The notes beneath the pieces are model-generated. The model ran no database searches, was not told the origin of the DNA, and saw only the letters and a program-made list of their open reading frames with translations. From an uncultured Pseudomonadota bacterium (lineage in GTDB: Bacteria > Pseudomonadota > Alphaproteobacteria > RF32 > CAG-239), in the NCBI GenBank assembly GCA_902799835.1, contig CADCCF010000001.1, positions 186,001 to 250,000 on the forward strand: a stretch of DNA of 64,000 nucleotides, read 5' to 3'. Positions 29,029-64,000 of this stretch are shown in pieces; within the stretch, counting starts at the first letter, position 1; every line of letters begins with the position of its first letter. The position numbers and the translations under genes were made by a program.

Positions 29029-29058
29029 GTGCACTTTTTGGAAACGGACTGTTTGATA

Positions 29059-43746: not shown

Positions 43747-43804
43747 GGCAAATTTTGCCTAAGTGAGATACAATATAATTGTAAAGTTTGAATTTTGCAA
43801 AATT
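43747..43804 (+). promoter_or_regulatory. Promoter region of the first VirB2-like gene with two palindromes
   Basis: A TATAAT box at 43774-43779 lies 42 bases before the start codon, with no good -35. On either side are palindromes built on the same TTTTGC unit: GGCAAA-t-TTTGCC at 43747-43759 (just upstream of the -10) and the perfect 14-bp AATTTTGCAAAATT at 43791-43804 (5' leader). Their placement fits operator sites. The stretch from 43600 to 43746 shows no gene. Confidence 0.45.
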
Positions 43805-43821
43805 TAAAAAGGAGAATAAAT

Positions 43822-44833: not shown

Positions 44834-44850
44834 TTTTGAGGGGAACGGTT

Positions 44851-46548
44851 ATGACAATATCAAATAAACTTTTTCTCAAAAACTTAATAATATTTATCAT
44901 AGTTTTTATGGTGGTCAATCTGCTTGAAACCAAAGATGTATGGGCGGCAAGTCAAATTATTGCCGAGGTTCGCGACAAAGCTGCGCATGTTATTGAGCAT
45001 TATAAACCGATTGTATATATATTGGGCGGTTTCGGTTTGGTTTGCGTGGCCTGGGGTGCTATTTTTGGCAAAATGAATTGGAAATGGTTTGCTAATTTGG
45101 CAATTGGTTTGTTTTTGGTTGCTTGGATGGGACATTTGATAGATTACTTCACTAAAAACAAAGCCAGCTCCACTGCCAGTGCAAAATTTAGTTCGACTAG
45201 CAAATTGGTAAAATTCGGTGATACAATCAATAAAAAATCTTTGGCCGACGGAGGAAATTTCTCGTCACTGCAGATAAAGGGGTCAGGTGAAGCCGGTGAG
45301 TATAGTTCCTTGCTTAGTAGCAATCAAGATTCTATTGCTTATTTGGAATCTGATTGGGTCAAAACAGCGATTGAGCGTTCCGGCAATAGCTTATATGCCG
45401 CTCGAGCCGCCAGTACCTTAGTCTCAGGTTCGGCTTATAACATGAAAGACAGCAAAGGGAGCATCGTTGATGCCAAAAAAATCCTGCAAACCGGTAGTGA
45501 TTGGGAAGAAGCGGCTCAAAATGCCGATAAAAAATATAAAGATTTGGTTGCCGCTCGAGCCGGTAGTATGTTGTCTTCAGGTTCAGCCTATAATGTAAAA
45601 GACACCAAAGGTGAAGATTATGATATCAAAGCTGCGCTTCGTCAAGGCAGTGATTGGAAAGAAGCTTCGGACAAATATAAAGATGATATGCATGTTGCCG
45701 GTGTTGGATCTAACCTCGAAAATGGTAGTTTTAAAGGGCCAAATGAAGATGGCACTGAGCATGTGTATCTGGCCGGTGGTAACGCGATGACTAACTTTAG
45801 TAGAGGTTTTTCTAAGGCTGCCGGAGGCTTTGGTGACGCTCAAACCTTTTTTGAATTTGGTAGTTATGACGGCTATGAATTTGGCAACAGCGATTATGCC
45901 CAATATGATATGGCAGATTTGGCCGGTGAAATGATGTATGATACCCAATCAATGATGCTGGGTTATGAGGTCGATGATTATAGCGGTTTGAATACCGAAA
46001 CTCGACGAGGTGATTTTGTGAGTGATAATTTCGATGGTTTGAACACCGAAACACGGAGGTCTTATTCAGGTACGACACTGGGTAACCTGAATACAGGTAG
46101 TAATCTTGTTGGCAACAGTGGTAATGTCGGCAGTGACTGGGCTGATACTGATGTAGCCTATACCGCCAGTAATCTGGTTGATGGTGAGCTCACCTATACC
46201 GATGCCGATGGTGAGCATACTGACAGTGCTGACGGAAATACTCATACCACACTTGCCGGAGCTAATGATGATTACGGCTACCAAGGTGATGTGGATACCA
46301 ATATGAACAGTGCTGATGGCTATCAAAATGTTAACACTAATATGAATAGTGCGGAAGGCTATCAAAATGTTAACACTAATATGAATAGCGCTAGAGGCTA
46401 TCAAAATGTTAACACCAATATGAACAGTGCCGCCGGTTATAAAGACGTCAAAACCAATATGAACAGCCCAGCCGGCTATCGTGATGTCAAAACCAATCTC
46501 AATTCGCCTGCCGGCTATAAAGATGAGGAGACTCATTGGGGTAGATGA
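44851..46548 (+). CDS. VirB2-like pilin (copy 3) fused to a long repeat-rich C-terminal domain
   Basis: 565 residues. The first 105 residues are a full VirB2 unit: signal peptide (to about 33), two helices and the loop FGKMNWKW. The remaining 460 residues are hydrophilic. Two diverged 51-residue repeats (AARAASTLVSGSAYNMKD... and AARAGSMLSSGSAYNVKD...) begin near 45397 and 45550, a partial third near 45697, two GLNTETRR units lie near 45985 and 46036, and six tandem 13-residue repeats (consensus V-x-TNMNSAxGYxN) fill 46291-46524 at the very end. Start at 44851 has AGGGGA upstream. A pilin fused to a surface-like domain is unusual; function unknown. Confidence 0.78.
   Translation: MTISNKLFLKNLIIFIIVFMVVNLLETKDVWAASQIIAEVRDKAAHVIEHYKPIVYILGGFGLVCVAWGAIFGKMNWKWFANLAIGLFLVAWMGHLIDYFTKNKASSTASAKFSSTSKLVKFGDTINKKSLADGGNFSSLQIKGSGEAGEYSSLLSSNQDSIAYLESDWVKTAIERSGNSLYAARAASTLVSGSAYNMKDSKGSIVDAKKILQTGSDWEEAAQNADKKYKDLVAARAGSMLSSGSAYNVKDTKGEDYDIKAALRQGSDWKEASDKYKDDMHVAGVGSNLENGSFKGPNEDGTEHVYLAGGNAMTNFSRGFSKAAGGFGDAQTFFEFGSYDGYEFGNSDYAQYDMADLAGEMMYDTQSMMLGYEVDDYSGLNTETRRGDFVSDNFDGLNTETRRSYSGTTLGNLNTGSNLVGNSGNVGSDWADTDVAYTASNLVDGELTYTDADGEHTDSADGNTHTTLAGANDDYGYQGDVDTNMNSADGYQNVNTNMNSAEGYQNVNTNMNSARGYQNVNTNMNSAAGYKDVKTNMNSPAGYRDVKTNLNSPAGYKDEETHWGR
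46291..46524 (+). repeat. Six tandem 39-bp (13-codon) repeats
   Basis: In-frame units begin at 46291, 46330, 46369, 46408, 46447 and 46486, each 39 bases, encoding V-[DNK]-TN-[ML]-NS-[AP]-x-GY-[QKR]-[ND]. Units 2 and 3 are nearly identical in DNA; units 5 and 6 have drifted most. Only eight codons (including the stop) follow. Such arrays can change copy number by slippage or recombination. Confidence 0.95.
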
Positions 46549-47577: not shown

Positions 47578-47655
47578 GATAACCTTATAAGCAGTATTGC
47601 AAACCGATTGCTAATATCTTATCATTTATTGCGAGATGTGTGCTGGAGAGCTGTT

Positions 47656-47946
47656 ATGCGTGAAATGATACTAAAAGCTGTGGCAAATCCTCCTAAGATA
47701 TTATGGGGGCCGTTTTTGCCTGTTATGCTGAATTTAGGCATTCAGTTTCCGATGCTATTTATGATGGTGGGGACGGTTGATGTTAACCCACTGTGGTTTT
47801 TGATATTGATATTGCTGGGACACACATTTTGCATTTTTTTGGGGGCTAAAGAGCCTCACATTTCCAGCATGATTCAAGCCTTTGGCCAAGCAGCCAAAAA
47901 AAGTACCAACCTTTATAAAGTAAAGGGGAATAAATTTGCGCCCTGA
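47656..47946 (+). CDS. virB3: VirB3-like T4SS protein
   Basis: 96 residues with two adjacent hydrophobic helices near residues 18-60 and a polar C-terminus, the size and topology of VirB3, an inner-membrane component that works with VirB4. The N-terminal stretch with a Pro-Pro before the first helix is typical. The ATG at 47656 has GGAGAG upstream; the longer frame from 47608 has no such site. It overlaps virB4 by 11 bases, the usual virB3-virB4 pairing. Confidence 0.82.
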   Translation: MREMILKAVANPPKILWGPFLPVMLNLGIQFPMLFMMVGTVDVNPLWFLILILLGHTFCIFLGAKEPHISSMIQAFGQAAKKSTNLYKVKGNKFAP

Positions 47947-50365
47947 TTTTGATTTTTTATCGATTTTTGTTGAAGGTCTGTCCGGCTCTGAGATTATTGT
48001 GGCCATCATCGGCTTTATCTCAGCAGCCGCTTTTGCCGGTTTATGGGCAACCAAATTCGGTTATTTGGTTTTGCCGCACCCAACCGAGTCAAGAGTATCT
48101 GACTTTATGCCGTTTGAAAAACTTTTGTCTGACGGAATGACGATTCGTTGTTATAACGGGTCGTTAGCGCGCGTTTTTAGAATCAATGGTGTCGATTTAA
48201 ACTTTGCATCAAGCGAAAAAGTTGCATCAATGATGGAGGCTCGCAAAGCATGGATTGACGGCATGTCTGACTTGCAAATTACTTGCAGAGTTATTACTGT
48301 TCGTGAACGTGTTCCCTTGGAAGATAATGTCAAAAACTTTAATAATCCGCTATTGGAAAAAATCTCCGAGGTTTGGGAAGAAAATGTTGATAGAGTTTTC
48401 TTTAACACACACTATGTTGTTTTATCAGTCCCTGATCGTCGTGAGGCCTTAAAAGATTTGAATTATGCTTCACAAGCATTGACCGCTACTTTGAGTGAAT
48501 ATGGTGTTGAGCCTTTGGCTGAAACAGATGGATCTTCGGCGGCTGATAGTCCTTTTTCGGTTTATGCCAAACTTTGCTCTCCCGTCACAAAACCCAGTCC
48601 TTTGGTGCATGGTGCTCAAGGGGCTCAGCTCAATCAGATGTTGACAGCCGACCATATTCATTTCACTGATGAGAAAGGTATTATTAAATTCTTCTCCGGC
48701 GATAAAGAAGTTTATGAAATTGTGATGGGAATACGTTCTTCCGGTGATTATGTTGATGAAGCCATGACAGCATCTCTTTTGGCATTGGATTGTGAGTTAG
48801 TTTTGCTTCACAATATTCATGCCATATTCAAACCCAAAGCTCGTGCGCTTTTAATGCAGCAACAACGCATGGCTACCATGACCAGTTTTTCATCCAACGT
48901 GGTTGATCAATATAGTGAAGTTTTGGCGGCTATTGAAGATAGTGATGCCGATCACCAGGCCTTAACGGAATATTCCATGACTATATTGTTACGTGGTGCG
49001 AGTGTAGAAGAACTTGATTTCGCCGAAAGTGAAGTTCAACGTATATGCCGCCTGTTTGGTGTGACACCGGTTCGTGAAGGATGGGTTGCTCAGGCATCAT
49101 TCTTCAATCAGTTTCCGACCTATGAAGTTTTGCCACGCAACTATCGCTATCTTTCAAGAGTGGTTGCCTGCTCGGTTTCATTTGATAAACCATCCGAAGG
49201 CTTTTCAAAATCTGACTGGGGAAATGGAGCAATTTCTGTTTTTCGTACCACCTCAGGTTCGGCGTATCGTTTTCAGTTCCACGTGTCATCTGAAGATTCG
49301 GCGGTTGCTCACTGTTGCATTATCGGTCCGACCGGTCAAGGTAAAACTACTTTGCTTACCTTCCTTGCCGGTCAAGCTATGCGTCATGCCGATTTGAGGG
49401 TTTTCTTTTTTGACCGCCACTTGGGTGCGCGCATTTTTACTCATGCTGTCCAAGGAGCTTATATCGGTTTTGATGGTGACGAGAAAAATGTATCACTCAA
49501 TCCATTTGACTGCAGTAATACTCCGAATAATCGCGCCTTTTTGCGTCGTTGGATGCGAGCCATAACTTTAGTCGACGATTCGGTTTCAGAAAAAGAAATT
49601 GCTCGTGCCGTAACTACAGCTTTTGACTATTTGCGTCCGGAAGAGCGCGTTATGACCAATCTTTATAAAAGTTGTTTTTCGCCGACCGGAAATATGCGTC
49701 GCGAATTGTTCAAATGGGTGAATCCTGATCAGTATGGAGCTATTTTTAATGGTACCAGTGATAGCTTGGATTTGAAAAGCAAACGTTTTATGGCTTTTGA
49801 TTTTACGCACATTTTTGAGGATGAAACACTGGCTCCCGCGGTCATTAGCTATATTATGCACCGTATTCAATCAGAGACCGGCGAAACCGGTGTTCCATCA
49901 TTGATTATGATTGATGAAACGGCGCCTATGTTAAAACACCCGATGTTTAGGGATTATTTTATTATCGGTTTGCAAGAAGGACGTAAAAAACGTCAGGCTT
50001 ATTTGTGCGCTTTCCAACAACCAAGCATTATTGATAAATTAGGTGTGGGTGAGGTTATTCGCGGACAATGCCAAACTGTTATATTTTTCCGCAACCCTCA
50101 GGCAATGCCGGAAGATTATGCTAACTGGAATTTAACTGATGCGGAAACTGATTTTATTTTCGGTCGCTCTTATCGCGATTTCCCCTATGCTATTTTACTG
50201 TCGCGTCCTTCAACCGGAGAATCTGTAATTCTGGATGTCGATTTAAGTGGTTTGGGACCATATCTGAAATTGTATAACTCTGGTCGAAAGAATGTTTTGC
50301 TGGTTGAAGAGTTAGTCAAAGAATACGGCGAAGATAATTTTGTTACAAAATATTTAAATATTTAG
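47936..50365 (+). CDS. virB4: VirB4-family T4SS ATPase
   Basis: 809 residues. A short hydrophobic N-terminal helix (about residues 17-38) and the CagE/VirB4 N-terminal domain precede the ATPase core: Walker A IIGPTGQGKTTLLTF near residue 465, FFDRHLGARIF, the LNPFD motif, Walker B LIMIDETAPML near 655, and the GRKKRQAYLCAFQQPS sensor region. VirB4 powers pilus assembly and substrate transfer. The start is TTG at 47936 inside the end of virB3, with AAGGGGA six bases before it; no better start exists nearby. Confidence 0.93.
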   Translation: MRPDFDFLSIFVEGLSGSEIIVAIIGFISAAAFAGLWATKFGYLVLPHPTESRVSDFMPFEKLLSDGMTIRCYNGSLARVFRINGVDLNFASSEKVASMMEARKAWIDGMSDLQITCRVITVRERVPLEDNVKNFNNPLLEKISEVWEENVDRVFFNTHYVVLSVPDRREALKDLNYASQALTATLSEYGVEPLAETDGSSAADSPFSVYAKLCSPVTKPSPLVHGAQGAQLNQMLTADHIHFTDEKGIIKFFSGDKEVYEIVMGIRSSGDYVDEAMTASLLALDCELVLLHNIHAIFKPKARALLMQQQRMATMTSFSSNVVDQYSEVLAAIEDSDADHQALTEYSMTILLRGASVEELDFAESEVQRICRLFGVTPVREGWVAQASFFNQFPTYEVLPRNYRYLSRVVACSVSFDKPSEGFSKSDWGNGAISVFRTTSGSAYRFQFHVSSEDSAVAHCCIIGPTGQGKTTLLTFLAGQAMRHADLRVFFFDRHLGARIFTHAVQGAYIGFDGDEKNVSLNPFDCSNTPNNRAFLRRWMRAITLVDDSVSEKEIARAVTTAFDYLRPEERVMTNLYKSCFSPTGNMRRELFKWVNPDQYGAIFNGTSDSLDLKSKRFMAFDFTHIFEDETLAPAVISYIMHRIQSETGETGVPSLIMIDETAPMLKHPMFRDYFIIGLQEGRKKRQAYLCAFQQPSIIDKLGVGEVIRGQCQTVIFFRNPQAMPEDYANWNLTDAETDFIFGRSYRDFPYAILLSRPSTGESVILDVDLSGLGPYLKLYNSGRKNVLLVEELVKEYGEDNFVTKYLNI

Positions 50366-50446: not shown

Positions 50447-52627
50447 ATGAAAATGTTGCGAATTATAGTATTGATGACAATGTTATTGCTTCCGATGCGG
50501 GCGCAAGCAGCAATAACGATTGATTTTGGTGCTATTGCCGGAACGATTCAGTCTGTCGTCACCAATGTAAAGGTCAAAATTGACCGTGTTAAAGCCAATG
50601 TTATGGAGTGGAAAATTGTCCAAACATTGGGAACCGCTTTGAAAAGTGTTACAGAATTTTTCCAAAAACTTGAACAGGAATATAAAAAGCAAAAGGCAAA
50701 ATTTGATAAATGGAGAGAAGATATAACTCGCTTCTTATCTGATATGGAAGCTTATTACGCCGCAACTATGGATGTTTATCAAAAGGCACTGGATACAGCA
50801 GAATATCTGGCAGAAATCGGAACACGTTTTCAAGCTTATTGGAATGAAGGTGAATCTATCGTAAAAGATAGCGGTGAAACCATAGCGATGTGTGGCAGTA
50901 ATTTGAAAGAGTTGATTAATGTTGTAAAACACGCCAAAGAACAGTGGGCAGAGCTTGAAGAAAACTATGAAAGATATGAGGCTAATAAAGAATATCTTCA
51001 ACAGCAACTGAACGATTTGGAAGCTCATGAAGAATCTAATGCCGTCACCAATGAAATAAGAAATTTGCGCGATCAGTTGCAAAATCATATGGCGCAAATT
51101 GAAAATTTAAAACAGGGGATTCGCAGCATAAAAAATCAATTTTATATGCATATATCCGAGCAAAAAAGTTTGATTTACGCTTGTAGGTATAATGTTCAAG
51201 CCATTAGAGCGCGTGTAAAAAGATTGATTTGTAATCTGAGTGTTGGCGAACTGAAAGGCTTTGAGAATCAGGCTAAAAAGCTTGGTAGTAGTCTTAATAA
51301 CTTAAACAAAAAAATGGAAAATTTGCAAATTGACGCTTATGAACTTGAAAACAACGATGCGAGCGGTTGTGTGGATTATTGTACAGAATGTTCATATGGC
51401 ACACCTTTTGCCTCAGATCAAAAAGCTGCTGAAAAATCGCAAGACGAGGCTTGTAGGAAATGCGCCGAATGTAAACCATTACCTTATTCAAGTGCCTGTG
51501 AAGGAAAAGAAAATGAAAATTGCAAAAGTGCCGTAGCAATTATCAAAGTAAATACATTGACCAACGGATCAGTACAATGTGAAAGAGAAATTGAACAATT
51601 GGTAAAAGGTCCGGATGATTATAGTTGTTCTAAATATAAGCAGATGTGTACGGATGGAAATAATGAAGCTTGTCAGATAAGTTGTAGCTCAATGTGTGGC
51701 AGCATACCGGCAAATGATGATATTTGCTGTGAAATAGCAAGTAGAAAATGTTATGGTGGACACAGTGGTTATTGTAAAAACCTTGAAGAAAACTGTCCAA
51801 CTTATAGAGCAGATAAATCAGCATCAGAATGTAAAACATTAAAAGAGGACTGCGACAGAGCAAGAGGGGAGCTTATTGAAGGTAGTGAAATGGAAGAGCC
51901 GGTAATGTGTGAAACATACAGGATAATGTGTGCCGGCCAATACAGCTATAATTACTCAATTTCACGATCTTCAGCCGTAGCATATGCTGATGTTGATTTG
52001 AGCAACGTAAAAAACATTAAAAGTGGTACGAATGAGGCCGGCGTTTTTTTACTTCCCAACAGTTTGGCTATCTGCTGTGAGCTTAATGCCGATACAGCTA
52101 TGCAGGAAGGAGCACTGCGTGATTGCATAACTCGTTATAATGATGTGATGAATCGCAACAATTATGACACAAATCCTGATGATCCTGATGCTAAAATTAG
52201 TGAAGCCGATAAAAAGTTTTTTCAGTGTCTGAGGAAAGATATGGGCTCCGAAGAGTTTGATGATAAGGTGAAACAGTCTGATAAAGAACTTGCCGGTATT
52301 TCTCTTGAAAATGCTCTAGCTGAATACTTGGCTGCCGGATATTTGGAGGCAATGCAGGCATATAATGACAGTTTCTCTTTTAAGAATGATCAAATAGATC
52401 CGGTGGTCAATACCAAGAACAAAGATATGCAAGCTGCTTGGGATATCGCCATTGACCTAAATTTAAAAGTAGGTGACAGGCTTAATGCAATCAGCAATTT
52501 GTGGGCGCGAGAACAAATGACCAGATCGTTTATGAATGTAAAAAATTATCGAATGTCTGAAAGTTTTATTTCTACATGTCAAAATCCGGATAAAGCCGAA
52601 AATGCTACCGGTGATAAAGGGGAATAA
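50447..52627 (+). CDS. Large exported coiled-coil and cysteine-rich protein of the T4SS locus
   Basis: 726 residues. The signal peptide ends with AQA near residue 21. Residues about 25-280 are helical with long Lys/Glu/Gln coiled-coil stretches. Residues about 300-490 are very cysteine-rich, with recurring C-x2-C and C-x3-C pairs such as CVDYCTEC, ACRKCAEC and CQISCSSMC; a less Cys-rich helical C-terminus follows. Many disulfides in the periplasm or outside the cell are expected. I do not recognise a family. It sits right after virB4, where virB5 (minor pilin) is expected. AGGAG precedes the ATG. Confidence 0.75.
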   Translation: MKMLRIIVLMTMLLLPMRAQAAITIDFGAIAGTIQSVVTNVKVKIDRVKANVMEWKIVQTLGTALKSVTEFFQKLEQEYKKQKAKFDKWREDITRFLSDMEAYYAATMDVYQKALDTAEYLAEIGTRFQAYWNEGESIVKDSGETIAMCGSNLKELINVVKHAKEQWAELEENYERYEANKEYLQQQLNDLEAHEESNAVTNEIRNLRDQLQNHMAQIENLKQGIRSIKNQFYMHISEQKSLIYACRYNVQAIRARVKRLICNLSVGELKGFENQAKKLGSSLNNLNKKMENLQIDAYELENNDASGCVDYCTECSYGTPFASDQKAAEKSQDEACRKCAECKPLPYSSACEGKENENCKSAVAIIKVNTLTNGSVQCEREIEQLVKGPDDYSCSKYKQMCTDGNNEACQISCSSMCGSIPANDDICCEIASRKCYGGHSGYCKNLEENCPTYRADKSASECKTLKEDCDRARGELIEGSEMEEPVMCETYRIMCAGQYSYNYSISRSSAVAYADVDLSNVKNIKSGTNEAGVFLLPNSLAICCELNADTAMQEGALRDCITRYNDVMNRNNYDTNPDDPDAKISEADKKFFQCLRKDMGSEEFDDKVKQSDKELAGISLENALAEYLAAGYLEAMQAYNDSFSFKNDQIDPVVNTKNKDMQAAWDIAIDLNLKVGDRLNAISNLWAREQMTRSFMNVKNYRMSESFISTCQNPDKAENATGDKGE

Positions 52628-52628
52628 G

Positions 52629-53450
52629 ATGATAAACAGAGCGCTTTTTGTTTGGTTTTTGATGCTAGGACTAAGTTGCAATATCCTAGTAGCTAATGCT
52701 GATGATGCAGAGGTTAAGCGGAGTAACGGTTATAGTGCTCAGGGTGAACTTTTAATTCCTTATGATATAGTCAAACGCTGTAACTTGGGAGATGGTGGTA
52801 CTTTAGAGTTAACAGATGGATGTTTATATGCTTTGGCTTGTGATAAACATCAAGTCTTTCAAGAATGGGTTCGAACCAAAAAAGGTGAAGGTAAAGACGT
52901 AAGTATTGATGAAAATGAATATAACGGAGATTATGAAATTAGTTGTATGATGGCTAAATATACCAAAGCTGATTTGGACTACATCATTTCGCGACTTATC
53001 TCAGGAGGTAATCACGAAAATTTGGCAAAAGAAAAAGCCGGCTATGAAATTGCGCCAACTTTGGGTGCGGAAGGAGTAGCAGTGGATGCCTGTTCTTCAT
53101 TAAAAACACAATGTGATGAAGCAAAAATTGAACACAGCGATACATCTACGCAACCTATACCTTGTTTTATGTATGAAAAATGTGAGGAATCTTTACAACA
53201 AATTCAGGCAATCAAAGATTGTTCTGATGATCAGGGCAGTACACGTTGTTCTATTCAGGCTAATAACACACTAACCGCTGACAGCACCCAAGTATTATCA
53301 GATATAGTTCACATCAAATCTATGATGAACAGAAATGAAATTGCCAACAACATAGTCAACATAATATCTAAAATGGAGATAGATAAGGGAAAGTGTTTAG
53401 ATGATATAAAAAAGTCAGCTGAATCAGGTACCAAAGGAGAAAGCAAATGA
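52629..53450 (+). CDS. Exported cysteine-containing protein of the T4SS locus
   Basis: 273 residues from the ATG at 52629, one base after the preceding stop codon, with AAAGGGGA upstream. Signal peptide ends near residue 23 (VANA-D). The mature protein has about ten cysteines, pairwise spaced (for instance CFMYEKC), and a helical C-terminus. No known family. Overlaps the next gene by four bases (ATGA), so it belongs to one translational unit with its neighbours. Confidence 0.7.
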   Translation: MINRALFVWFLMLGLSCNILVANADDAEVKRSNGYSAQGELLIPYDIVKRCNLGDGGTLELTDGCLYALACDKHQVFQEWVRTKKGEGKDVSIDENEYNGDYEISCMMAKYTKADLDYIISRLISGGNHENLAKEKAGYEIAPTLGAEGVAVDACSSLKTQCDEAKIEHSDTSTQPIPCFMYEKCEESLQQIQAIKDCSDDQGSTRCSIQANNTLTADSTQVLSDIVHIKSMMNRNEIANNIVNIISKMEIDKGKCLDDIKKSAESGTKGESK

Positions 53451-54532
53451 ATAAGAGAATAATATGTTTTGTGTTCATTATGCTTGGCTCTGTATTTATA
53501 GCTAAAATTTCTTATGCCGGTACAGATATTATTAATACAGTGTTGTTGAAAGCAGGCAATGTTATAGATAAAGTTTCGCAAAAATATGAGGGTATTTCGG
53601 TGAAAGTGCGCGAACTGACCGAAGGAAAGTTGTTTGCGCTTGACGAAAATACCGCCGATATGATTCAAAAAGCCAAAGATCAAAAAGATTCTATTCAAGA
53701 GAAAATCGATAAAGTTCGCGCCGCAAAAGAATTTATGACTCATGCGGATGAAGCAATACTTGATCGTTACAATACCATGTTAAGTCAGCTTGAAGCCTCG
53801 GATACTCAAGCAAGAGATATTGTTAAACAAAGAGGGTGGACATTTGGCAAGGATAATACTGATGATAACAGTGATGATGACTATTCCGACGGTAGTGATG
53901 ATTATGGTTTTGATGACGGGCAGGCACAAATAATTTCTAAAGATAGTGTTGGCAGTGAAAATTATAGTAGTGATGACAGTAAAAAGACCAATGGCAAAAT
54001 TGATAGCGATGAAGTTAGCAGCCAATATGATGATTCTGAAGACGAATATTATTATAGCGGCGACATGGATGATGATTATGACGATAGCGGTTCTGTTATT
54101 ACATCTAATGATAATTCAAAACAAAATTCCGACAATAACATAAAAACAACCGAGTCAAAAGAAATTAAAAAGTCAGCAGATTCTATCGAAAATTCGACTG
54201 CTCAATCAACAACAAGAAAAAAATTTAGTTCCTTAGATAGTGATAATTCAGACAAAAAGCAGGTCGATGTTTCCTCAAATTTGAACAAAATGGCATCATC
54301 TGAGCAAAAGACATCGCCAAATAAAGCGAGTATTGGCAATTCGCAAAAAATAAGCACTTTGGATAGCGCAAGCAAGACATCGAAAGAAACACCAGTAAAT
54401 ACTGATTTAAAACAACAAAATATTTTGTTAAAGGATAAAGTCTCATCTGCTCCCAGCGTCCGCAGAAGATCTTTTACATCAGAAAAAGCTGCATCCAACG
54501 AAATGGAGGGATCAAATGTTGCAAAAAACTAG
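53447..54532 (+). CDS. Exported protein with helical N-domain and acidic Asp/Ser-rich tail
   Basis: 361 residues: signal peptide (ending SYA-G near 25) and an amphipathic helical domain of about 110 residues containing QKAKDQKDSIQEKIDKVRAA. A 190-residue low-complexity region follows, first rich in Asp, Ser, Gly and Tyr, then in Ser, Lys, Thr, ending basic. The helical part has the look of VirB5/TrbJ-type minor pilins but no diagnostic motif. Starts within the previous gene's stop and overlaps the next gene by 17 bases. Confidence 0.72.
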   Translation: MNKRIICFVFIMLGSVFIAKISYAGTDIINTVLLKAGNVIDKVSQKYEGISVKVRELTEGKLFALDENTADMIQKAKDQKDSIQEKIDKVRAAKEFMTHADEAILDRYNTMLSQLEASDTQARDIVKQRGWTFGKDNTDDNSDDDYSDGSDDYGFDDGQAQIISKDSVGSENYSSDDSKKTNGKIDSDEVSSQYDDSEDEYYYSGDMDDDYDDSGSVITSNDNSKQNSDNNIKTTESKEIKKSADSIENSTAQSTTRKKFSSLDSDNSDKKQVDVSSNLNKMASSEQKTSPNKASIGNSQKISTLDSASKTSKETPVNTDLKQQNILLKDKVSSAPSVRRRSFTSEKAASNEMEGSNVAKN

Positions 54533-55037
54533 TTTGATAGTTATTGGATTGATATTGATGTTTTTTTTAGTTTCTGAAGCTTTTGCCGGTAGCAAAATTA
54601 AGGGGCAACCCGACCAATTATGGCTCACTCCAATGGGAGATGATAATATCGAAAATACCGGCTATAATCGTTGTCGTGTCATAAAAACAATGAAACCTGG
54701 AGAAAAACGAGTTATGCAAACCGTTAATAATACCCAAACATTGTTAGGCAGATATGCTTCCGAGTTGTATTTTCAAGCAGTAAAAGCCAATTTTGAAATT
54801 GACCAAGAAACACCTGATGATGTAATGACAAGCACGGCAGAACTTAGTTTAATGAATCGTCAAATAATTGCTAGGTTAGCCAATATTGCTAATCGTCTTA
54901 ATATTATAGTATCTTTAGAATCGCGCACAGCTGCCCTTAACAACATTAAAAAGATTACTAACCTATCAGGCAGCGTATATAACGACTATGAGTATGATGC
55001 TGAAAAAGAAACATGCGGCCTTAAAAGCGGAGGATAA
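54516..55037 (+). CDS. Exported helical protein of the T4SS locus
   Basis: 173 residues with a signal peptide (ending AFA-G near 24), a beta-like segment with one Cys, and a long helical region (LMNRQIIARLANIANRLNII) near the C-terminus, ending with a second Cys. No family recognised. GGAGGG lies upstream of the ATG at 54516, inside the previous gene's end. The Asn-Arg-rich helix resembles the C-terminal part of the protein from 52629 (MMNRNEIANNIVNIISKM), hinting at a shared ancestry. Confidence 0.68.
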   Translation: MLQKTSLIVIGLILMFFLVSEAFAGSKIKGQPDQLWLTPMGDDNIENTGYNRCRVIKTMKPGEKRVMQTVNNTQTLLGRYASELYFQAVKANFEIDQETPDDVMTSTAELSLMNRQIIARLANIANRLNIIVSLESRTAALNNIKKITNLSGSVYNDYEYDAEKETCGLKSGG

Positions 55038-55042
55038 TTTTT

Positions 55043-56542
55043 ATGAATAAAACATGTAATATATGGTTTTTATTTATTTTAGCAATCTTTTTGACCTTTC
55101 CGTTGCGACAGGCTGAAGCTGTTATTCCGTTTGAAATTAGTTTAGCGGAAACTGCCGGTAAAATAAGCACCTGGATACAAGAAAAAATTATTTTGGTGCA
55201 AGCAAAAATTACCAGTATCAATGAGAGCAAAATAGCCAAAGGTATAGGCGATGGACTGAAAACGATTAAAGAAGTTCGAGATTGTGTCAAGGAACAATAC
55301 AATGGTGGCACTCCTCCATCTCAAAACAATAATGATGAAAATGATTCTCAAAATAGTGGTCGTGGAACTACCTCTCAAAAATGTCAAAAATACGTTCAAA
55401 AATATAAGTTTTTGGCTGATGTTGTAAGAATGGCAGGAGATGCTAAAAGATTTATGGGTTCTATTAAGGATTCAAAAACCTATAAAATTGTCCAGCTTAC
55501 TCGAGCCATTGCTGATGATGCTATTAAAATAACTCAGCTTGATGAATATCGCGAAGATCGCATTAACCGAATAAAAAATCAAGCCGAGATTGATGCTGAT
55601 ACGCTTAATGGTAAAATTGAGATGGTAAAAGACGACCTGAAAATTATGAAAGAAGACCATAAAAAAATGGCAGCTAGTGCTGATTTGCTTCAAAAGGGAC
55701 AAATGGAAGCTGAAGAGTTGCAAATGGAGCAATATATTATAAAACTTGAAGCCGGTAAATTCCAAATCAAAGAGAAACTTGCTCGAGATATTATCACCAT
55801 AAATGCTAAATTTGCCGAGACTACAGCTGAAATTGTTAAACGTAGAGAAAAAAATATTGCTGAAGTTTTGGAATTAAAGTCAAAACTCAAAGAAGATAAA
55901 GATAAAAAGAACAATAAAAAAACAAACACAAGTAACAGTGGTAACCAGGCTCCGTCAGAACAAACACAAACACCTGTTGAAATAGTAGCGGCTGCTCAAC
56001 AAAAATACAGTCCCAGCATAGATATTGCTGATACTATTGCCGGATCAGAAAAGCGTATTGCCCAGATTAATGAAGATATAGAGGTTAGCAATGTTGCTGG
56101 TTTTAACCAAGCTAATGTCTATTTATCAGATTCAATTGACCCGGTTAATGACTCTTCGTCGGATTTGGAGTTGGGAGAAACTGCCGAAGGCAAATCGGAA
56201 ACAGTTCAGACCGCGATAGACAACACACTATTACAAATAGACATGATTGCCAAGATAATCCAAATGGAGTTAACGAATTTAGAAACCGAAACTATGGAAA
56301 AAATTATGCAGAATGTTAACTTCAAAATTGAGCGTCGGTACAACAATGACAATGCTTTAGTTACCGATGTTTGCAATTATGAAGTGAAAGAACAAGAAAA
56401 TAAAAAGAGCGAAGCAGAGGAAACTTCTACTAGGGAAATACCTTCATCAGACAAGGGTGCGGAAGCCTCAAATCAAGCTGAAGAAGAAAGCGACACCCAA
56501 AAAGATGATAAGACTCAAATAAACGAAGTTATTGTTGGATAA
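55043..56542 (+). CDS. Exported coiled-coil protein of the T4SS locus
   Basis: 499 residues. Signal peptide ends near residue 22 (AEA-V). An amphipathic N-domain (TAGKISTWIQEKI...AKITSINESK) resembles those of the proteins from 50447 and 53447. A long coiled coil follows at about residues 165-290, then a Ser/Thr/Gln-rich spacer, more helix, and an acidic C-terminus. Three cysteines. No family recognised; an exported structural role in the apparatus is inferred from context only. AGGATA precedes the ATG. Confidence 0.7.
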   Translation: MNKTCNIWFLFILAIFLTFPLRQAEAVIPFEISLAETAGKISTWIQEKIILVQAKITSINESKIAKGIGDGLKTIKEVRDCVKEQYNGGTPPSQNNNDENDSQNSGRGTTSQKCQKYVQKYKFLADVVRMAGDAKRFMGSIKDSKTYKIVQLTRAIADDAIKITQLDEYREDRINRIKNQAEIDADTLNGKIEMVKDDLKIMKEDHKKMAASADLLQKGQMEAEELQMEQYIIKLEAGKFQIKEKLARDIITINAKFAETTAEIVKRREKNIAEVLELKSKLKEDKDKKNNKKTNTSNSGNQAPSEQTQTPVEIVAAAQQKYSPSIDIADTIAGSEKRIAQINEDIEVSNVAGFNQANVYLSDSIDPVNDSSSDLELGETAEGKSETVQTAIDNTLLQIDMIAKIIQMELTNLETETMEKIMQNVNFKIERRYNNDNALVTDVCNYEVKEQENKKSEAEETSTREIPSSDKGAEASNQAEEESDTQKDDKTQINEVIVG

Positions 56543-56557
56543 AAGGGGGAAAGAAGA

Positions 56558-59500
56558 ATGAAGAAATATTTTTGGATGGCTATAATCGGTTTGATGACGT
56601 TTATGATGCCAAAATCGTCTTCTGCCTTTTTATCAAAAGCAATAGAGGAAGCATATAATGTTATTCCGATTTCTCCGGTTGTAAATTTTGCCGAAGACCT
56701 CACAGAAACCGGAAAAATGTTGGGCAAAACTTATGCTCAGGTTCAATCTTTGACTAATCAAATCAAGAAAGATGCCACTAGCTTAAAATCTTCGCTTACT
56801 TCAGCATTTTCATCAGTGGCAGGTGTTTTTTCTTTTATCAACATCGGTGGAACGCAAAATACTTTAATGTGCGGTAGTGTTTTAGGTTCGGTAAATGTAA
56901 GCAAAATGTCCCTTAAGTTGCAAGAAATATTGCTAAGTTATAAGCCGGGGCAAAAAGAACTGGTTCAGCGGCGAAGACTAAGTTTTTATATGGACAATAT
57001 TTATAATATCTATGCCGCAGTCCAAGTTATGAAAGAGGAGCTATCGGAAAGCGGAGAAGTCGGCTCAAAAATTATAAGTGCCAAAGAGTGTTGTTCTCAA
57101 GGTGGGCAGGGTGAAGCTTGCGGAATATCAGGGAACAACGAAATTTTAGCAAAATATGGTTATGCTCTTTCCACATTAGAAGATTTGATTAAAATGTGGG
57201 AAAGAGTAGCGGCATTAAAAGCTCAAAAGCAGGCTATTGACGTCATAATGTCAATTGATGTCCAACCTGAAGTTAAAGCAGAAAAGGTATCTTTGCTTGA
57301 AAGGAATAATTCTTCAGTTTTGTATAGTTCATATCGCAAAACTTATAGTGCTCCAATTGGGTATGCACAGATGCTTTATAAAAGTAACAGGGCTAGTCTG
57401 TCAGATGTCGAGCAGACCAAAGATGAGACGCAAAAAGTTAAAAAGAGCCGTTTTGCAGGTATGGGGTTGAATTTTGTTGCGCCAAAAATGCCTGACGACA
57501 CATCTCCTATGTTGGACAACATTGAGAATATGGAAGCTTTTAATGAATTGTCGCAAGTAGAAGATGCTGTGTCAGAAACTTTATCTCTCCACAATTTTAT
57601 CAGAGATATTGATAACTATCGCGCCACTGCAGAGCAATATAAAGCAATGCAGGAAAATTATCAAAAAAAACTTAATATGTTGAGGGATTCAAACCAATGC
57701 GGTAAAAAATATGTTGGTAGATATTTTAATAGTATTGACCAAACATGGTCCGGTGTGGCTTTGAACAACAACAATGTTAATGATTATGATTTACGTAAAG
57801 GAATATCCGGTTGGGCTTTTAATGCCTATGAAGTGGCAAAAGGTGCTGAAACTACGGTTAACGAGGATGAAGAAGGTAATGTCAGCTATTCTGATAATTC
57901 ATCCGTAAAGGTTGATGACTTAGAAACCGACAATGACACAATAGATGATAAAGACGTTGCTGATAATACCAAAGGTGCTGATTTGGAAGAATCTGAATCT
58001 AAAGTGAAAAAGAATAAAGACAGTTATGACAAAGGCGAAGGAGTGAGTGCCTCAACTTCCGACAAAACCAAGGAAGAAAATCGCAAAGCCACAATGTTGG
58101 CGTGGCAAATTGGTGCCGAAGCATCTAAAGCTTTGAGTAAAGATGCTCCTTCTTGGGGAACACCTAATAATCGTAAAATGATATGGAATGATACTAAAAT
58201 TTTTTATAATCAATATTTGCAAAATAAATATGGCAGAAAAAATCTTGATGGACAGGAAGGAAATATCAGAGCTTATCTGAAAAGATTTACTGAAAGTGAT
58301 GTCGTTGATGTAATATTATCTGTACTTAGTAATGCTGAAGAACATCTCAGTCTTAGCCAGACTGAATATCAAACGCAGCTAAATGAAAAATATGCAGCTG
58401 TTGATACGGCCTTTCAAACGTTATTTAGCCAAAGTAACGCAACCAGCACTCAAGCAGATGCTAATTTGTTACAGCAGCAAAAGAATCTCAAAGCCAAAAT
58501 TGATGAAATTACTACAAAAATTAAAAGCTTAAGCGATGAAGTCGGTGATATAGCCAGCAACTCGGAAGACCAATCTTTCTCGGAAACGGACCGCGCATCA
58601 TCAAAAGAAATTAATTATTTGGATGACAACGCGTCTAAAAACAAATTGCAAAAATATGATGAAATATCATCTGAAATGTCGGAGAAAGTCGCTCAGAATA
58701 AAAAAGATAATAATTTTGATGCTTTGAAAAAGCAGTTGGATCAAGCTAAATCGCAAAGAGATGCTTTGCAAAAACAAATGAATAATTTGGATTTACAAAT
58801 TGAAGCTTCAAAAGCTGAGAAGCAAAGTTCTGGAACAACAGCTAGTTCATCAATTCCGCAAAGCGTATTGGCTTTATGCAATGGGTTTAATCAGGAGAAA
58901 GGTAGAATTTTGCAACAGTACACTCAAAATTTAGGAGGGCGTTTTGATAGTGTTGCACAAATTTTAAATATATCTTCAGATAATTTGCCATCGTTTAAGG
59001 AAGCAATCACATCTGCTGCTGGCGAGATAGTCAGCGAAATTATGGGAAATGTAGATTCTATAGTTGATGACGCTTATTCACAGATGCTAGCTTTAGGGGA
59101 AGATTTATACTTACCGACATCTGCGGCACAAGTCGCATCTATTCACCAAAATATGATAAATCGTCTAAAAGCTATGACCATAACTAAGAGTATTGCTGGA
59201 TATAGCTTAAATGACTTGGTTGTTTTTGCCGACTTAGCAACCTTAGATACTTCACCTGAAACCGAAGGCTTTTTTGTCGGAGCTTTACCTAGAGCCCGTG
59301 ACCTTAAAGCTCCTTATCCGATGCGCGATTTAAGTCAACCGCCTGTTCGTGAAGTTTTTCACTTTGATATGACAGACTATTCAAATGTTAAGGCTTATAG
59401 TTCAAAAAACTATAGTACATATGAAAGTAAAAAGAGTAAATTAAAGTTGCCGATGTATGACAAAGATGAACTTTTAGCTGATATGCGTAAATTACGCGGA

Positions 59501-60598
59501 ATCAGTCGCGGTGACTTTTTAAATTACGGTGGAGAAATTCCTAAGATATGGCAACTTATGTTGCAAGATTATTCTTTCATAGAAAAGAAATTTAATCTTC
59601 AAAGTGCATTAACGCAAGGATGCGAAGCTGCAGCATTTTTACGCGGTGGAATTATGCCTTGTCGAATTGGTGACAGCGGAGTGGTTTTGGACGTTAATGT
59701 GGTTAAAGAAGAGGATGAGGACAACGAAGACAGTTATATTTATACATATGACAATAATGATGATCAGTATATTAAGCGTACAGATCTCAATCCTCAGAGT
59801 TTGCCTAAATGTTTGCTGATTGAGCTTAAGAAGAACAAGCCGTTTTTGACTTTTTATGATGACAATGTAAATATTGATTCAAGTATTTTTGGTAATGATA
59901 ATGAGCCAGCCGAGGTAAATTGTCCGTACAGTGAACTCGGTATGCTTTTAGATTCTGACGAAAATAATAATATTTCATTTAAAAGCACGGTTTATGAAGT
60001 ATTTAATGATAGCTTCAAAATAGAGGATACTAGTCCTAAAAAATTAAGCCAGGATCAGAAAAACCAATTGGCCATTGCACAACAGGCAGAACTCTCGCGC
60101 AACCAAATTGGTGACTTTTTACGGCAGGCTGAATCTGAAAAGAAGATGAAGCAATCACTAGAAGAAATGAAACAAAAATATGATGATCAAATCAAAGAAT
60201 TGCGAGAACTTTTGGCTGACTATGGATTTACTGTAAGTAACAATTATGATCTTACCAAACCGGCCGATTATAATTTAACCATAAGTCGTTTGAAGGCGGC
60301 CAAAAATCAATCGTTAAATAAAGTAAATACGTTATTGAGGCAGATTAAAGTGGATAATAGCAATAAGCCGGCTAAGGTAAAAAAAGCTACCATAGATAAA
60401 ATAGTGAGTATTTTACAGCTTGATACCGAAGCAGATTTAGAGTTGTCTATGTCGTCTGCCGATGATAATGATATTAATGCCGAACTGAAAAGGGCAAAGA
60501 CTGACAGGGAAGCAACTGAAAAATATAAAAAGAAAGTAAAAGATGAGAATGATGAAGAATATAGAGATTTAGAGGAGGCGTATTGCGCTAATTATTAG
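56558..60598 (+). CDS. Giant (1346-residue) exported coiled-coil protein of the T4SS locus
   Basis: The largest gene of the window. Signal peptide ends near residue 23 (SSA-F). An N-terminal helical part contains four cysteines (MCGSVLG, CCSQGG, ACGISG). The middle (about 610-780) and the end (about 1150-1330) are long coiled coils, and a more globular segment lies at about 880-1120 with another few Cys (GCEAAAFL, MPCRIG). No transmembrane helix beyond the signal and no enzyme motif are seen. Family unknown. It ends immediately at the VirB8-like start (stop at 60596-60598, ATG at 60599). GGGGGA precedes its own ATG. Confidence 0.78.
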   Translation: MKKYFWMAIIGLMTFMMPKSSSAFLSKAIEEAYNVIPISPVVNFAEDLTETGKMLGKTYAQVQSLTNQIKKDATSLKSSLTSAFSSVAGVFSFINIGGTQNTLMCGSVLGSVNVSKMSLKLQEILLSYKPGQKELVQRRRLSFYMDNIYNIYAAVQVMKEELSESGEVGSKIISAKECCSQGGQGEACGISGNNEILAKYGYALSTLEDLIKMWERVAALKAQKQAIDVIMSIDVQPEVKAEKVSLLERNNSSVLYSSYRKTYSAPIGYAQMLYKSNRASLSDVEQTKDETQKVKKSRFAGMGLNFVAPKMPDDTSPMLDNIENMEAFNELSQVEDAVSETLSLHNFIRDIDNYRATAEQYKAMQENYQKKLNMLRDSNQCGKKYVGRYFNSIDQTWSGVALNNNNVNDYDLRKGISGWAFNAYEVAKGAETTVNEDEEGNVSYSDNSSVKVDDLETDNDTIDDKDVADNTKGADLEESESKVKKNKDSYDKGEGVSASTSDKTKEENRKATMLAWQIGAEASKALSKDAPSWGTPNNRKMIWNDTKIFYNQYLQNKYGRKNLDGQEGNIRAYLKRFTESDVVDVILSVLSNAEEHLSLSQTEYQTQLNEKYAAVDTAFQTLFSQSNATSTQADANLLQQQKNLKAKIDEITTKIKSLSDEVGDIASNSEDQSFSETDRASSKEINYLDDNASKNKLQKYDEISSEMSEKVAQNKKDNNFDALKKQLDQAKSQRDALQKQMNNLDLQIEASKAEKQSSGTTASSSIPQSVLALCNGFNQEKGRILQQYTQNLGGRFDSVAQILNISSDNLPSFKEAITSAAGEIVSEIMGNVDSIVDDAYSQMLALGEDLYLPTSAAQVASIHQNMINRLKAMTITKSIAGYSLNDLVVFADLATLDTSPETEGFFVGALPRARDLKAPYPMRDLSQPPVREVFHFDMTDYSNVKAYSSKNYSTYESKKSKLKLPMYDKDELLADMRKLRGISRGDFLNYGGEIPKIWQLMLQDYSFIEKKFNLQSALTQGCEAAAFLRGGIMPCRIGDSGVVLDVNVVKEEDEDNEDSYIYTYDNNDDQYIKRTDLNPQSLPKCLLIELKKNKPFLTFYDDNVNIDSSIFGNDNEPAEVNCPYSELGMLLDSDENNNISFKSTVYEVFNDSFKIEDTSPKKLSQDQKNQLAIAQQAELSRNQIGDFLRQAESEKKMKQSLEEMKQKYDDQIKELRELLADYGFTVSNNYDLTKPADYNLTISRLKAAKNQSLNKVNTLLRQIKVDNSNKPAKVKKATIDKIVSILQLDTEADLELSMSSADDNDINAELKRAKTDREATEKYKKKVKDENDEEYRDLEEAYCANY

Positions 60599-61366
60599 AT
60601 GAGTGAAAATGAAATTTCTAATCAACAAATTACAAGTAATTCGGATATAAAAGCAATTTCCGGAAATACATCCGGTCAACCTCAATATATTGAACAAATT
60701 GATCAAACCGAACGTTCGGCCAAGATGTTTTATTATCTATGGATTTCAAGATTTTTTGTCCTTACGGCAGTCTTGACAGTAAGTTTCTTAGTTCTAGCAT
60801 CTTTAGCTTTGTTCAGATTAGCTCCGCGTGTTACGGTTGAACCTTTATTGTTGATTAAAAACAGCAGTTCTGATGAGTTGGTCAGTAATGAGGGTATTAC
60901 TTTTGATATGCCATCTAAAGATTTGCTGATGAAAATGTATATTAAACAGTATGTCACATTGCGTAATACGATAATTCATGATCGTACGGAAATGCAAACC
61001 AGATGGATGGCCGGTGGCATGGTAAATTTTCTGTCTTCGCCGACAGTATATAATGAATTTGGCGCTCCTTTAGTGAATACCTGGGAACAAATCATTAGCC
61101 AGCCAATTACCAGAGAAGTTGATGTTACATCAATTACAAGACAAGGTGGTGAACGCTCGCAAATTTGGAAGGTTGATTTTAAAACATATGACTTGTCCAA
61201 TCAGGCAGGAAAAGAATCAAGTGCAGACAGTATTAAAGTAAGATACTGGACATCATCAATCACTGCAAGATTTATTCCTGACAGAGCTTTTTCATTCTAC
61301 CGCTTAATAAATCCGCTTGGTTTTACAGTTACTCGCTACTCACAAACGGAAGTTAACATATTCTAA
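60599..61366 (+). CDS. VirB8-like T4SS protein (copy 1)
   Basis: 255 residues: a polar N-terminal cytoplasmic segment of about 45 residues, one membrane helix at about 55-78, and a periplasmic domain of about 175 residues. Features typical of VirB8/TrbF are RVTVEPLL right after the helix, LLMKMYIKQYVTLRNT, and KVRYWTSSITARFIP with a terminal NPLGFTVTRY. VirB8 is a core bridging component of the inner-membrane complex. It has no ribosome site of its own; the nearest AGGAGG is about 20 bases upstream, so translation is probably coupled to the giant gene before it. Confidence 0.83.
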   Translation: MSENEISNQQITSNSDIKAISGNTSGQPQYIEQIDQTERSAKMFYYLWISRFFVLTAVLTVSFLVLASLALFRLAPRVTVEPLLLIKNSSSDELVSNEGITFDMPSKDLLMKMYIKQYVTLRNTIIHDRTEMQTRWMAGGMVNFLSSPTVYNEFGAPLVNTWEQIISQPITREVDVTSITRQGGERSQIWKVDFKTYDLSNQAGKESSADSIKVRYWTSSITARFIPDRAFSFYRLINPLGFTVTRYSQTEVNIF

Positions 61367-61672: not shown

Positions 61673-62416
61673 ATGGTAGAAGAGATTAAGTATGGACAAC
61701 CACAACCGCGTATGATTGCAGGAAGGCGCGCCCCCAATGCAACGGCTCCACATCGCTCTTCTAAAAGTAGCGATAATTTGTTTGTCGCTAATGTAGCCGA
61801 AAAACGTTATCTTTGGACTGCTCGTGCTTTTGCTGTTATTACAGCGCTGAGCTTGTGTTGTAATATCGTATTGATTTTAGCCATTTTTCAAGTCGTTCCT
61901 TTGTACAGAATAGAACCGTTTCTGTTAAGTTTTCAGAATCAATCGGAGCAGGTCTATAATATTATGCCGGTGACCGGAGAGCTGCGCAATCGTCGTGCAA
62001 TCACCGAAGTGTTTGTAAGAGATTATGTGTTGCAGCGTAGCGCTTTTACCCGTGATGCAGATGTTGCAAAATCTCGTTGGACGCCAGGGGGCACAATTCA
62101 AGAAATGTCAACTGCTAAGATATACCAAGAATTTTGGGATAATATTGGTAAAAAAGCTTTGTCAGTTATTCAAGAAAAAGGCATGGAACGCAAGGTTAAG
62201 ATTCTTTCCATAAATGAATTGACTAATGGAGTATGGCAAGTTGAGTATGAAGCAAGCGACACTTATCCGGATTCTACAAAGCCAGAGATAAGCTACTGGA
62301 CTGCTTCATTAAGTGTTATGTACCGCCGTAAAACGGTTAAATATGGTGAGAGGTTGAAAAATCCGTTAGGGTTTACTGTTACAAAATATGCGTTGAGTCG
62401 CAACAGCGTGGAGTAG
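61673..62416 (+). CDS. VirB8-like T4SS protein (copy 2)
   Basis: 247 residues with the same layout as copy 1: a basic N-terminus of about 50 residues, a membrane helix near 55-78, then VVPLYRIEPFLLSF and a periplasmic domain with VFVRDYVLQRSAF, RWTPGG (copy 1: RWMAGG), ISYWTASLSVMYR and a final NPLGFTVTKY identical in pattern to copy 1. The two are clear paralogues, diverged, flanking the lipoprotein gene. An IcmL/DotI protein would have a similar topology, but the VirB9-like neighbour favours VirB8. Confidence 0.84.
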   Translation: MVEEIKYGQPQPRMIAGRRAPNATAPHRSSKSSDNLFVANVAEKRYLWTARAFAVITALSLCCNIVLILAIFQVVPLYRIEPFLLSFQNQSEQVYNIMPVTGELRNRRAITEVFVRDYVLQRSAFTRDADVAKSRWTPGGTIQEMSTAKIYQEFWDNIGKKALSVIQEKGMERKVKILSINELTNGVWQVEYEASDTYPDSTKPEISYWTASLSVMYRRKTVKYGERLKNPLGFTVTKYALSRNSVE

Positions 62417-62438: not shown

Positions 62439-64000
62439 ATGAAAAGATTTATACTGGCAATTGTTGCGTTTTGGGGTGTGTCACTGAGCGCGGCTCAAGC
62501 TCAGGTGAATCAACAAATAATGGATACAAGTGCCGATCAATCACAAGGCAACTATACGCCTATGAATATGGACTATGCTGGATTTAATTCTTTAGGTATG
62601 ACGCAGGCCGCATGGTTGGATCCTTTGCAAAATCTTGGTGAAGGACAAAGCAGACCGGCTTATTCCAAATACTATTGGACACCTGACTTGGTGTTGCCGA
62701 TACGTGTCCGCGAAGGTATGTTAACAATGGTTAATTTTCCAGAGTGGGAATTAATCGAAGATATTTATCTCGGCGATCAAAATACATTTGATGGTCAGAT
62801 ATCCGGTCCAAGCACATTGTTGCTGTACCCGCGCAGCGGGGCGCAAGTCGGTGTTGATACTAACGCGATTGTTTTTGGCCGTTCAGGTAACCGTTATGTG
62901 TTTTATCTTAAATCCGAAGCAGTTAATACGGAACGTTTGACTAATGCTATTATTGATATTGAGGTTGTTAACGATAATGTCCCTAATTCAGGAGGTGGGG
63001 TATCGCCATACAGCGGTAGTAAATCAGGTCTAGGATCTGGTAGCGGAACGAAAGGAGCTATTTCAAATTACACCAAACGATTTCAAAAAAGCGATTGGAT
63101 ACAGTCAATACCGGTAGATCCTAGTGATTTTAAGTTCGATTTGGAAGTTTATGTTCCCAATCCTGATGACGTGGTTATAGCTCCGGAAAGAGTTTGGCGT
63201 GATAATATATTTACATACATAGATTTGGGCAAGAAATCTTTAAATATGGTGCAAAGACCTGTTGTTAGTATGATTGTTGAACGTGTTGAAGTTCCGGTTG
63301 GATTTCGTGCCAAAGGACCGGATAATCGTTTAATAGTCGTCGAAGGTATTGGTGATATGGTTTTGCGCAACGGTAAACGTATAATCTGTATCAAAATGCG
63401 TCGTTCTGATGAAAGTGGTTTGGAATATGCTGTTGATTCTGCTGATTATTTGCCGCCGACATGGGATGTTGGTCCTGCTATTCCAAATGCACAAACCACA
63501 GGCATTGATAACAACATTAATCGCAATCTCATGCCGCAGGGTGCTTCTCAGGGTGCTCCCCAAGGTACCAACTATAACGGAGGTGTAGGAGGTGGTGCTT
63601 ACGGAAGTGGCAATTATGGTATGACATCGGTAGGACAGGTTGATATTCAAACAGGACAAGGTCAAATTATAGTTCCTGAGTATGCTAAATCCGGTAGCAT
63701 GGGCGGAGGATTCGGTGGTAATGCGGCAGATAATTTTGATTATTCTAAAATGCAACATATAAGTATTGATCAGTCGAATAGCGGATATGGTGCTGCTCCG
63801 CAATTTGCTTACGGATACGGCTTTAGTGGAGATGGCAGTCAAAATATATCAATCGAGCTCGGTACCGATGGTGATGTAAACAATTTGGAAAGCTTGTGGG
63901 GTAAATTGTCTACAAAATATAAAGAGCTTAGTCGGTTTACACCATTTTTCTCAGTCGACGCACCTGCTGATGGACAAGGTCGCGAGTTGTTTCACCTGAG
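62439..64000 (+). CDS. VirB9-like T4SS outer-membrane core protein with C-terminal SPOR-like domain (cut by window edge)
   Basis: At least 520 residues, open at the right edge. Signal peptide ends AQA near 22. The VirB9/TrbG N-domain is seen in VREGMLTMVNFPEWELIEDIYLGD and GNRYVFYLKSEA; the C-domain in PERVWRDNIFTYIDLGKK and GIGDMVLRNGKRIICI. A Gly/Gln-rich linker of about 130 residues leads to a segment (ESLWGKLSTKYKELSRFTPFF ... GQGRELFHL) that looks like the start of a SPOR peptidoglycan-binding domain. ATG 62439 is used; an in-frame GTG at 62424 is possible. Canonical VirB9 is about half this length. Confidence 0.82.
   Translation, partial: MKRFILAIVAFWGVSLSAAQAQVNQQIMDTSADQSQGNYTPMNMDYAGFNSLGMTQAAWLDPLQNLGEGQSRPAYSKYYWTPDLVLPIRVREGMLTMVNFPEWELIEDIYLGDQNTFDGQISGPSTLLLYPRSGAQVGVDTNAIVFGRSGNRYVFYLKSEAVNTERLTNAIIDIEVVNDNVPNSGGGVSPYSGSKSGLGSGSGTKGAISNYTKRFQKSDWIQSIPVDPSDFKFDLEVYVPNPDDVVIAPERVWRDNIFTYIDLGKKSLNMVQRPVVSMIVERVEVPVGFRAKGPDNRLIVVEGIGDMVLRNGKRIICIKMRRSDESGLEYAVDSADYLPPTWDVGPAIPNAQTTGIDNNINRNLMPQGASQGAPQGTNYNGGVGGGAYGSGNYGMTSVGQVDIQTGQGQIIVPEYAKSGSMGGGFGGNAADNFDYSKMQHISIDQSNSGYGAAPQFAYGYGFSGDGSQNISIELGTDGDVNNLESLWGKLSTKYKELSRFTPFFSVDAPADGQGRELFHL

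Follow-up and report, generated by a model that had tools for sequence, protein, structure and literature searches.

SPOR domains bind denuded septal peptidoglycan. The SPOR proteins known by 2019 all act in division or morphogenesis, and their usual layout is a small folded head on a flexible linker (PMC6895207). VirB9 belongs to a different machinery, building the core-complex rings of T4SSs at the outer membrane (PMC12857230). Wall-binding folds have been described in such a core for the Legionella Dot/Icm system, in which DotK and Lpg0657 lack the key binding residues and are suspected by the authors not to contact the wall directly (PMC7511231). The protein described here resembles these two in bringing a wall-binding fold with missing key residues into a T4SS outer-membrane core, but the fold of DotK and Lpg0657 is OmpA-like and sits on separate proteins, not fused to the VirB9 homologue. 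The VirB9 and SPOR families are themselves known; a SPOR tail on a member of the VirB9/CagX family is new relative to the literature that we searched, where most subscription papers were absent and no earlier report of SPOR with VirB9 or a T4SS was found. The finding bears on the anchoring of large T4SS core complexes in the cell wall and on their placement along it.

A VirB9 protein with a C-terminal SPOR fold

The window analysed is a stretch of 64,000 nucleotides (positions 186,001 to 250,000 of contig CADCCF010000001.1) from a 1.5 Mb genome that is 99.9% complete and whose close relatives with named records belong to the CAG-239 group of gut alphaproteobacteria (e.g., Azospirillum sp. CAG:239, L095). 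The virB9-SPOR gene is on the + strand at the end of this window, which holds its 5' 1562 bases (62439-64000); the last 94 bases, stop codon included, lie past the window end (G000:C1:250001-250094, corresponding to L005:4002-4095). The mechanical ORF begins at a TTG (62418), and we took the ATG at 62439 as the start; from there, the frame closes on the same contig at G000:C1:250094 (64094 in window numbering), and the complete gene (L005:2440-4095) codes for a protein of 551 aa (P0001). The sequence past 64000, where the original prediction had to stop, thus completes the frame, and the C-terminus keeps the predicted SPOR fold.

The protein consists, in this order, of a signal peptide, a VirB9/CagX region, a variable Gly/Asn/Ser-rich linker and a C-terminal SPOR-fold domain of 80 residues. 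The putative signal peptide, recognised by eye in the sequence, covers aa 1-22 (MKRFILAIVAFWGVSLSAAQAQ, 62439-62504, + strand). The VirB9/CagX region (aa 76-319, 62664-63395, + strand) matches PF03524 with 50.4 bits, above the curated cut-off of 34.2. Since this match ends at aa 319 of 551, 232 residues follow it, which bears out the earlier claim of a VirB9-like frame running on for more than 200 residues. The same claim had both VirB9 domains recognisable, and here the evidence is uneven. The N-terminal domain (aa ~72-180) is confirmed by its fold, which matches R388 TrwF (Z 13.1), Xanthomonas citri VirB9 (Z 12.5), CagX (Z 12.1) and also DotH, while the C-terminal domain (aa ~220-325), modelled mostly at pLDDT <50, is assigned by sequence only, with at least 67% identity across the order. 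The VirB9 equivalog TIGR02781 scored 29.9 bits, far under its cut-off of 217.7, and the protein is therefore left out of that narrow subfamily. Like VirB9, CagX, TrwF and DotH (PF03524), it has a signal peptide, the CagX profile, the N-terminal domain fold and a gene between virB8 and virB10; it differs from them in this score and in the extra residues with their SPOR-fold end.

The linker (aa 330-468, 63426-63842, + strand) is of low complexity and, as predicted, Gly-rich (20% Gly; 55% G/N/S/Q/A). Across the order, its mean identity is 27% and its length varies from 98 to 262 residues. The SPOR-fold domain, identified by profile and fold, comprises aa 471-551, of which aa 471-520 are coded within the window (63849-64000, + strand) and the rest up to L005:4092.

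For aa 478-549, searching the whole genome gave a PF05036 (SPOR) match of 22.4 bits, but when the complete 551-aa protein served as the query, the score was 18.2 bits (E 0.003); as the two values straddle the cut-off of 21, the single-protein match is borderline. This doubt is removed by its homologues, by tblastn and by the predicted fold. Full-length VirB9s of other families scored 22.6-27.7 bits in five of seven cases (14.0 and 15.7 in the other two), and 21 of 24 order members matched PF05036 at E<=0.05, so that the profile search proposed with the original prediction is borderline for this protein and positive for most of its homologues. With the genome's own FtsN-like SPOR as the query, tblastn retrieved VirB9 loci (best E 1.2e-5, 31% identity), and the C-terminal part of a model of the fused homologues in turn picked up further proteins of the SPOR type (E near 1e-9 to 1e-11). 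In the AlphaFold2 model, the C-terminal domain is a beta-alpha-beta-beta-alpha-beta, RNP-like fold at a pLDDT of about 90; its top structural matches are the SPOR domains of RlpA and CwlC, that of Pseudomonas aeruginosa RlpA (6i05) aligning over 75/76 residues with Z 10.1 and an rmsd of 2.1. When the domain was folded alone, the same three SPOR structures ranked first in Foldseek; the VIA list for this model placed 6ozd, a domain of a larger exported protein, level with the SPOR structures. A search by sequence against PDB gave one chance match only for the SPOR alignment and none for the full alignment, and the link to the PDB SPOR structures came through fold comparison only. VirB9 SPORs and alphaproteobacterial FtsN-like SPORs share a Trp in helix 1 and a Cys pair.

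By fold and by sequence, the tail is thus a member of the SPOR family, and the predicted SPOR domain with its alphaproteobacterial helix motif is borne out. The gene product is a VirB9 subunit of a VirB/VirD4-type secretion system with a SPOR-fold domain at its C terminus, joined by a flexible linker, and we regard the identity of this fusion as practically certain.

Distribution and conservation of the fusion

Among 153 genomes of the order, 120 have the VirB9-SPOR protein, and these represent 16 of its 17 genera. This rules out an assembly artefact; the fusion is fixed and no accident. In a sample of 385 genomes of the class, VirB9 was joined to SPOR in 20 genomes from nine families, and a tenth family (f2) came from the order search. 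Fusions are thus known from f2, f4, f23, f33, f51, f69, f74, f91 and f158, with at least 10 alphaproteobacterial families overall, while f12, f34, f120, f140 and f165 have VirB9 without SPOR. A stand-alone SPOR protein as a substitute in such loci was considered and rejected; the one candidate, a 212-aa ORF of L162, is a weak match about 7 kb off on the other strand and was judged unrelated.

In the tree of the VirB9 domain, a 98/98 branch sets all SPOR-bearing rows apart from the rest; with them fall the plasmid VirB9s from Erythrobacter aureus and from Sphingosinicella, as well as a Microvirga row that is SPOR-like. This topology is compatible with one origin of the SPOR-bearing VirB9s, though the Microvirga row forms a long branch. 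The plasmid proteins (L253:5911-7209 in E. aureus and L256:5905-7197 in Sphingosinicella sp.) are VirB9s of cultured bacteria. Pfam reported no SPOR in their tails, which are nevertheless recognisable as SPOR-like, diverged, and with an Asp at the position of the glycan-contact Gln discussed below.

Across the order, 33-34 of the 80-90 columns of the SPOR domain are invariant. In all 43 genomes compared, the VirB9 SPOR was closer to the own-genome copy than the FtsN-like SPOR was (medians 75% versus 62%), and in the distant genus g3 the values were 65-71% for the VirB9 SPOR versus 29-34% for the FtsN-like SPOR. Evidently, wall binding by the FtsN-like SPOR tolerates fast change, and the VirB9 SPOR changes less fast.

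The glycan-contact site and candidate ligands

In RlpA, the side chains touching denuded glycan are Q270, R302, R309 and R311, with hydrophobic contacts by F274 and L307; Q270 is the one highly conserved residue among them, and the homologous Gln matters for the septal localisation of FtsN and DamX (PMC6895207, citing earlier work for the latter). In RlpA, an Arg-x-Arg basic patch also binds the NAM carboxylate. Both a gapless sequence alignment and a structure alignment (model residues 471-552 on RlpA 266-341) place Glu473 at the position of RlpA Q270 and FtsN Q251 (codon 63855-63857, + strand; PMC6895207).

We compared these positions between 18 T4SS SPORs and a set of 51 ordinary SPORs from the class, which covers high and low scores and includes the genome's own three; two of 30 background SPOR loci (L176 and L197) were mis-extracted and excluded from the clean counts. 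The ordinary domains have Gln at the contact position in 50 of 51 cases and Trp in one, in a set biased towards Gln by the Pfam search used to collect it, versus Glu in 15, Asp in two, Ile in one and Gln in none of the 18 T4SS domains; neither set of counts represents independent events, because the sequences share ancestry. Glu also occupies this position in 50/50 order members and is invariant in a 15-row alignment over nine families. An aromatic residue (F/Y) at the RlpA F274 site is found in 39/51 ordinary SPORs versus 1/18 T4SS SPORs. The basic patch on the sheet is kept, here as His519 and Arg521: Arg at the R311 site (R521) is present in 17/18 T4SS SPORs versus 31/51 ordinary ones, and position 519 (R309 site) is R or H in 17/18 T4SS SPORs. 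Compared with the SPOR domains of RlpA, FtsN, DamX, DedD and CwlC (PF05036), the VirB9 SPOR therefore shares fold, size, flexible linker and basic patch, but has Glu or Asp in place of the contact Gln and no aromatic residue after it, and it is carried by a core component of a secretion system rather than by a division protein.

Because the signature Gln was looked for and is absent, the VirB9 SPOR should be kept out of the class of SPORs that bind denuded glycan, and septal targeting should not be read off a SPOR annotation alone. Given the consistent change of the contact residue, bare septal wall is probably not what the domain anchors the channel to. We picture the following arrangement. 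The VirB9 domains would build a ring in the outer-membrane core complex, each copy carrying a SPOR head on a linker of ~100 to 260 residues, and the linkers of 14 or so copies would let the ring of heads reach away from the core ring. The heads may then dock through the sheet face (Glu473, His/Arg519 and Arg521) on a conserved partner, for which a protein from the machine or the envelope is a likelier candidate than denuded septal glycan; a fold that binds the wall elsewhere would for that reason serve here as a structural anchor. By analogy with what is suspected for DotK/Lpg0657, the most likely reading is that the outer-membrane core complex has taken over the SPOR head for docking, although our own judgement on this proposal is evenly balanced. 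The same even weight goes to the broader proposal that the SPOR in the VirB9 ring of a widespread alphaproteobacterial T4SS group no longer recognises denuded glycan and has acquired a new ligand. If true, a SPOR domain would be working outside division-linked wall recognition, and secretion core complexes would have an anchor of a new kind.

Docking on a protein is favoured because the conservation of the VirB9 SPOR exceeds what glycan binding alone asks, a conservation that is not specific to protein docking, since all T4SS core parts are conserved. Against docking, most RlpA-glycan contacts are main chain (PMC6895207), and the loss of contact side chains need not abolish binding. The kept Arg-x-Arg patch also speaks against docking and would fit a glycan-like ligand. 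This patch makes a serious rival of an altered wall tether, in which the head would bind another glycan (e.g., with intact stems, amidated or modified) and tie the core to the sacculus anywhere on the cell. The flexible linker with a small head is the usual SPOR layout (PMC6895207), and the change from Gln to Glu/Asp alters the residue reading the lactyl group and might allow a hydrogen bond to a stem amide. However, the published structure predicts that stem peptides would clash sterically with the SPOR groove (PMC6895207), and the conservation of the domain is above the need of wall binding, so that we consider this other kind of cell-wall contact less likely than docking, though it is the main rival.

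The original prediction was that the T4SS core could be targeted to division sites or the cell wall. In the septal version, the SPOR head would bind septal glycan denuded by amidases and thereby place the T4SS at division sites or at new poles. The real SPOR fold and homology, the retained arginines and the division or morphogenesis roles of the SPOR proteins known by 2019 (PMC6895207) agree with this. Yet the contact Gln is acidic in every fused lineage but one (acidic or Ile in 18/18 domains), the aromatic residue is lost, and it is this Gln that counts in FtsN and DamX; on these residues, the inference of a T4SS targeted to division sites is weakened, and we hold it to be improbable, more so than an altered tether. 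A chance resemblance or a non-functional tail could appeal to the borderline single-protein score, but it is refuted by the homologues above the cut-off, the fold and the invariant columns, and its probability is negligible. A SPOR in every VirB9 copy with a fixed change at the glycan-reading residue offers a small soluble domain for testing directly how T4SS cores are anchored in the wall and what a SPOR can do outside division and morphogenesis.

Secretion-system genes around virB9

Two VirB8 paralogues precede virB9 on the + strand, at 60599-61366 (PF04335, 51.5 bits) and, directly upstream, at 61673-62416 (PF04335, 91.9 bits). Farther upstream on the + strand are the VirB4 ATPase (47936-50365; PF03135 54.3 bits, above the cut-off; TIGR00929 372.6 bits, below 643.1), a VirB3-like gene (47608-47946), assigned by its position before virB4 and a PF05101 match of 16 bits, below the cut-off of 23.9, and three VirB2-like membrane proteins (43795-44175, 44300-44833 and 44836-46548), recognised by sequence and by L164 homologues that adjoin VirB3/VirB4. 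The third of these (570 aa) ends in a 39-bp in-frame tandem repeat of about six copies (46297-46523). The same operon region codes, at 50447-60598 on the + strand, for six large exported proteins (726, 282, 361, 173, 499 and 1346 aa), some Cys-rich or coiled-coil, for which the profile search gave no credible family match.

Downstream, beyond the window, come two proteins with beta-flower repeats, of which the second has the VirB10 TrbI domain at its end, and then virB11. The locus thus has the virB8-virB9-virB10-virB11 context, and other families share the order virB8, virB8, virB9-SPOR, beta-flower/virB10, virB11. The genome, which has only one CagX protein, carries its VirB6-like genes and a VirD4 homologue away from this locus. 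From the VirB genes in the window, downstream and elsewhere, the system therefore looks complete, chromosomal and long established in the order. Within the window, 29029-31632 codes for an 867-aa exported protein with multiple membrane spans and a sub-threshold TrbL/VirB6 match (19.8 bits), and three more VirB6-like genes lie at G000:C1:1506-7407.

VirB10 is seemingly split in the order, into a membrane-anchored protein with ASH and beta-flower domains (L005:4104-7412) and one with a signal peptide, beta-flower and TrbI end (L005:7414-11985); the split is found in 67/67 complete loci. Families f4, f23 and f74 and some f91 loci have it unsplit, as one polypeptide of ~1280-2838 aa, and the VirB10s of L162, L163 and L164 carry N-terminal HYDIN/ASH-like Ig domains, a type named after cilia and spindle proteins. 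The beta-flower VirB10 as an obligatory partner of the SPOR domain was ruled out, because f69 loci keep SPOR with VirB10s that have no beta-flower. A 417-aa lipoprotein-like product (L005:15952-17205, also beyond the window), without a match in Pfam or NCBIfam, resembles by eye a secretin N-domain protein; in f120 and f34, two of the families without the SPOR tail, its homologues lie directly 3' of virB9.
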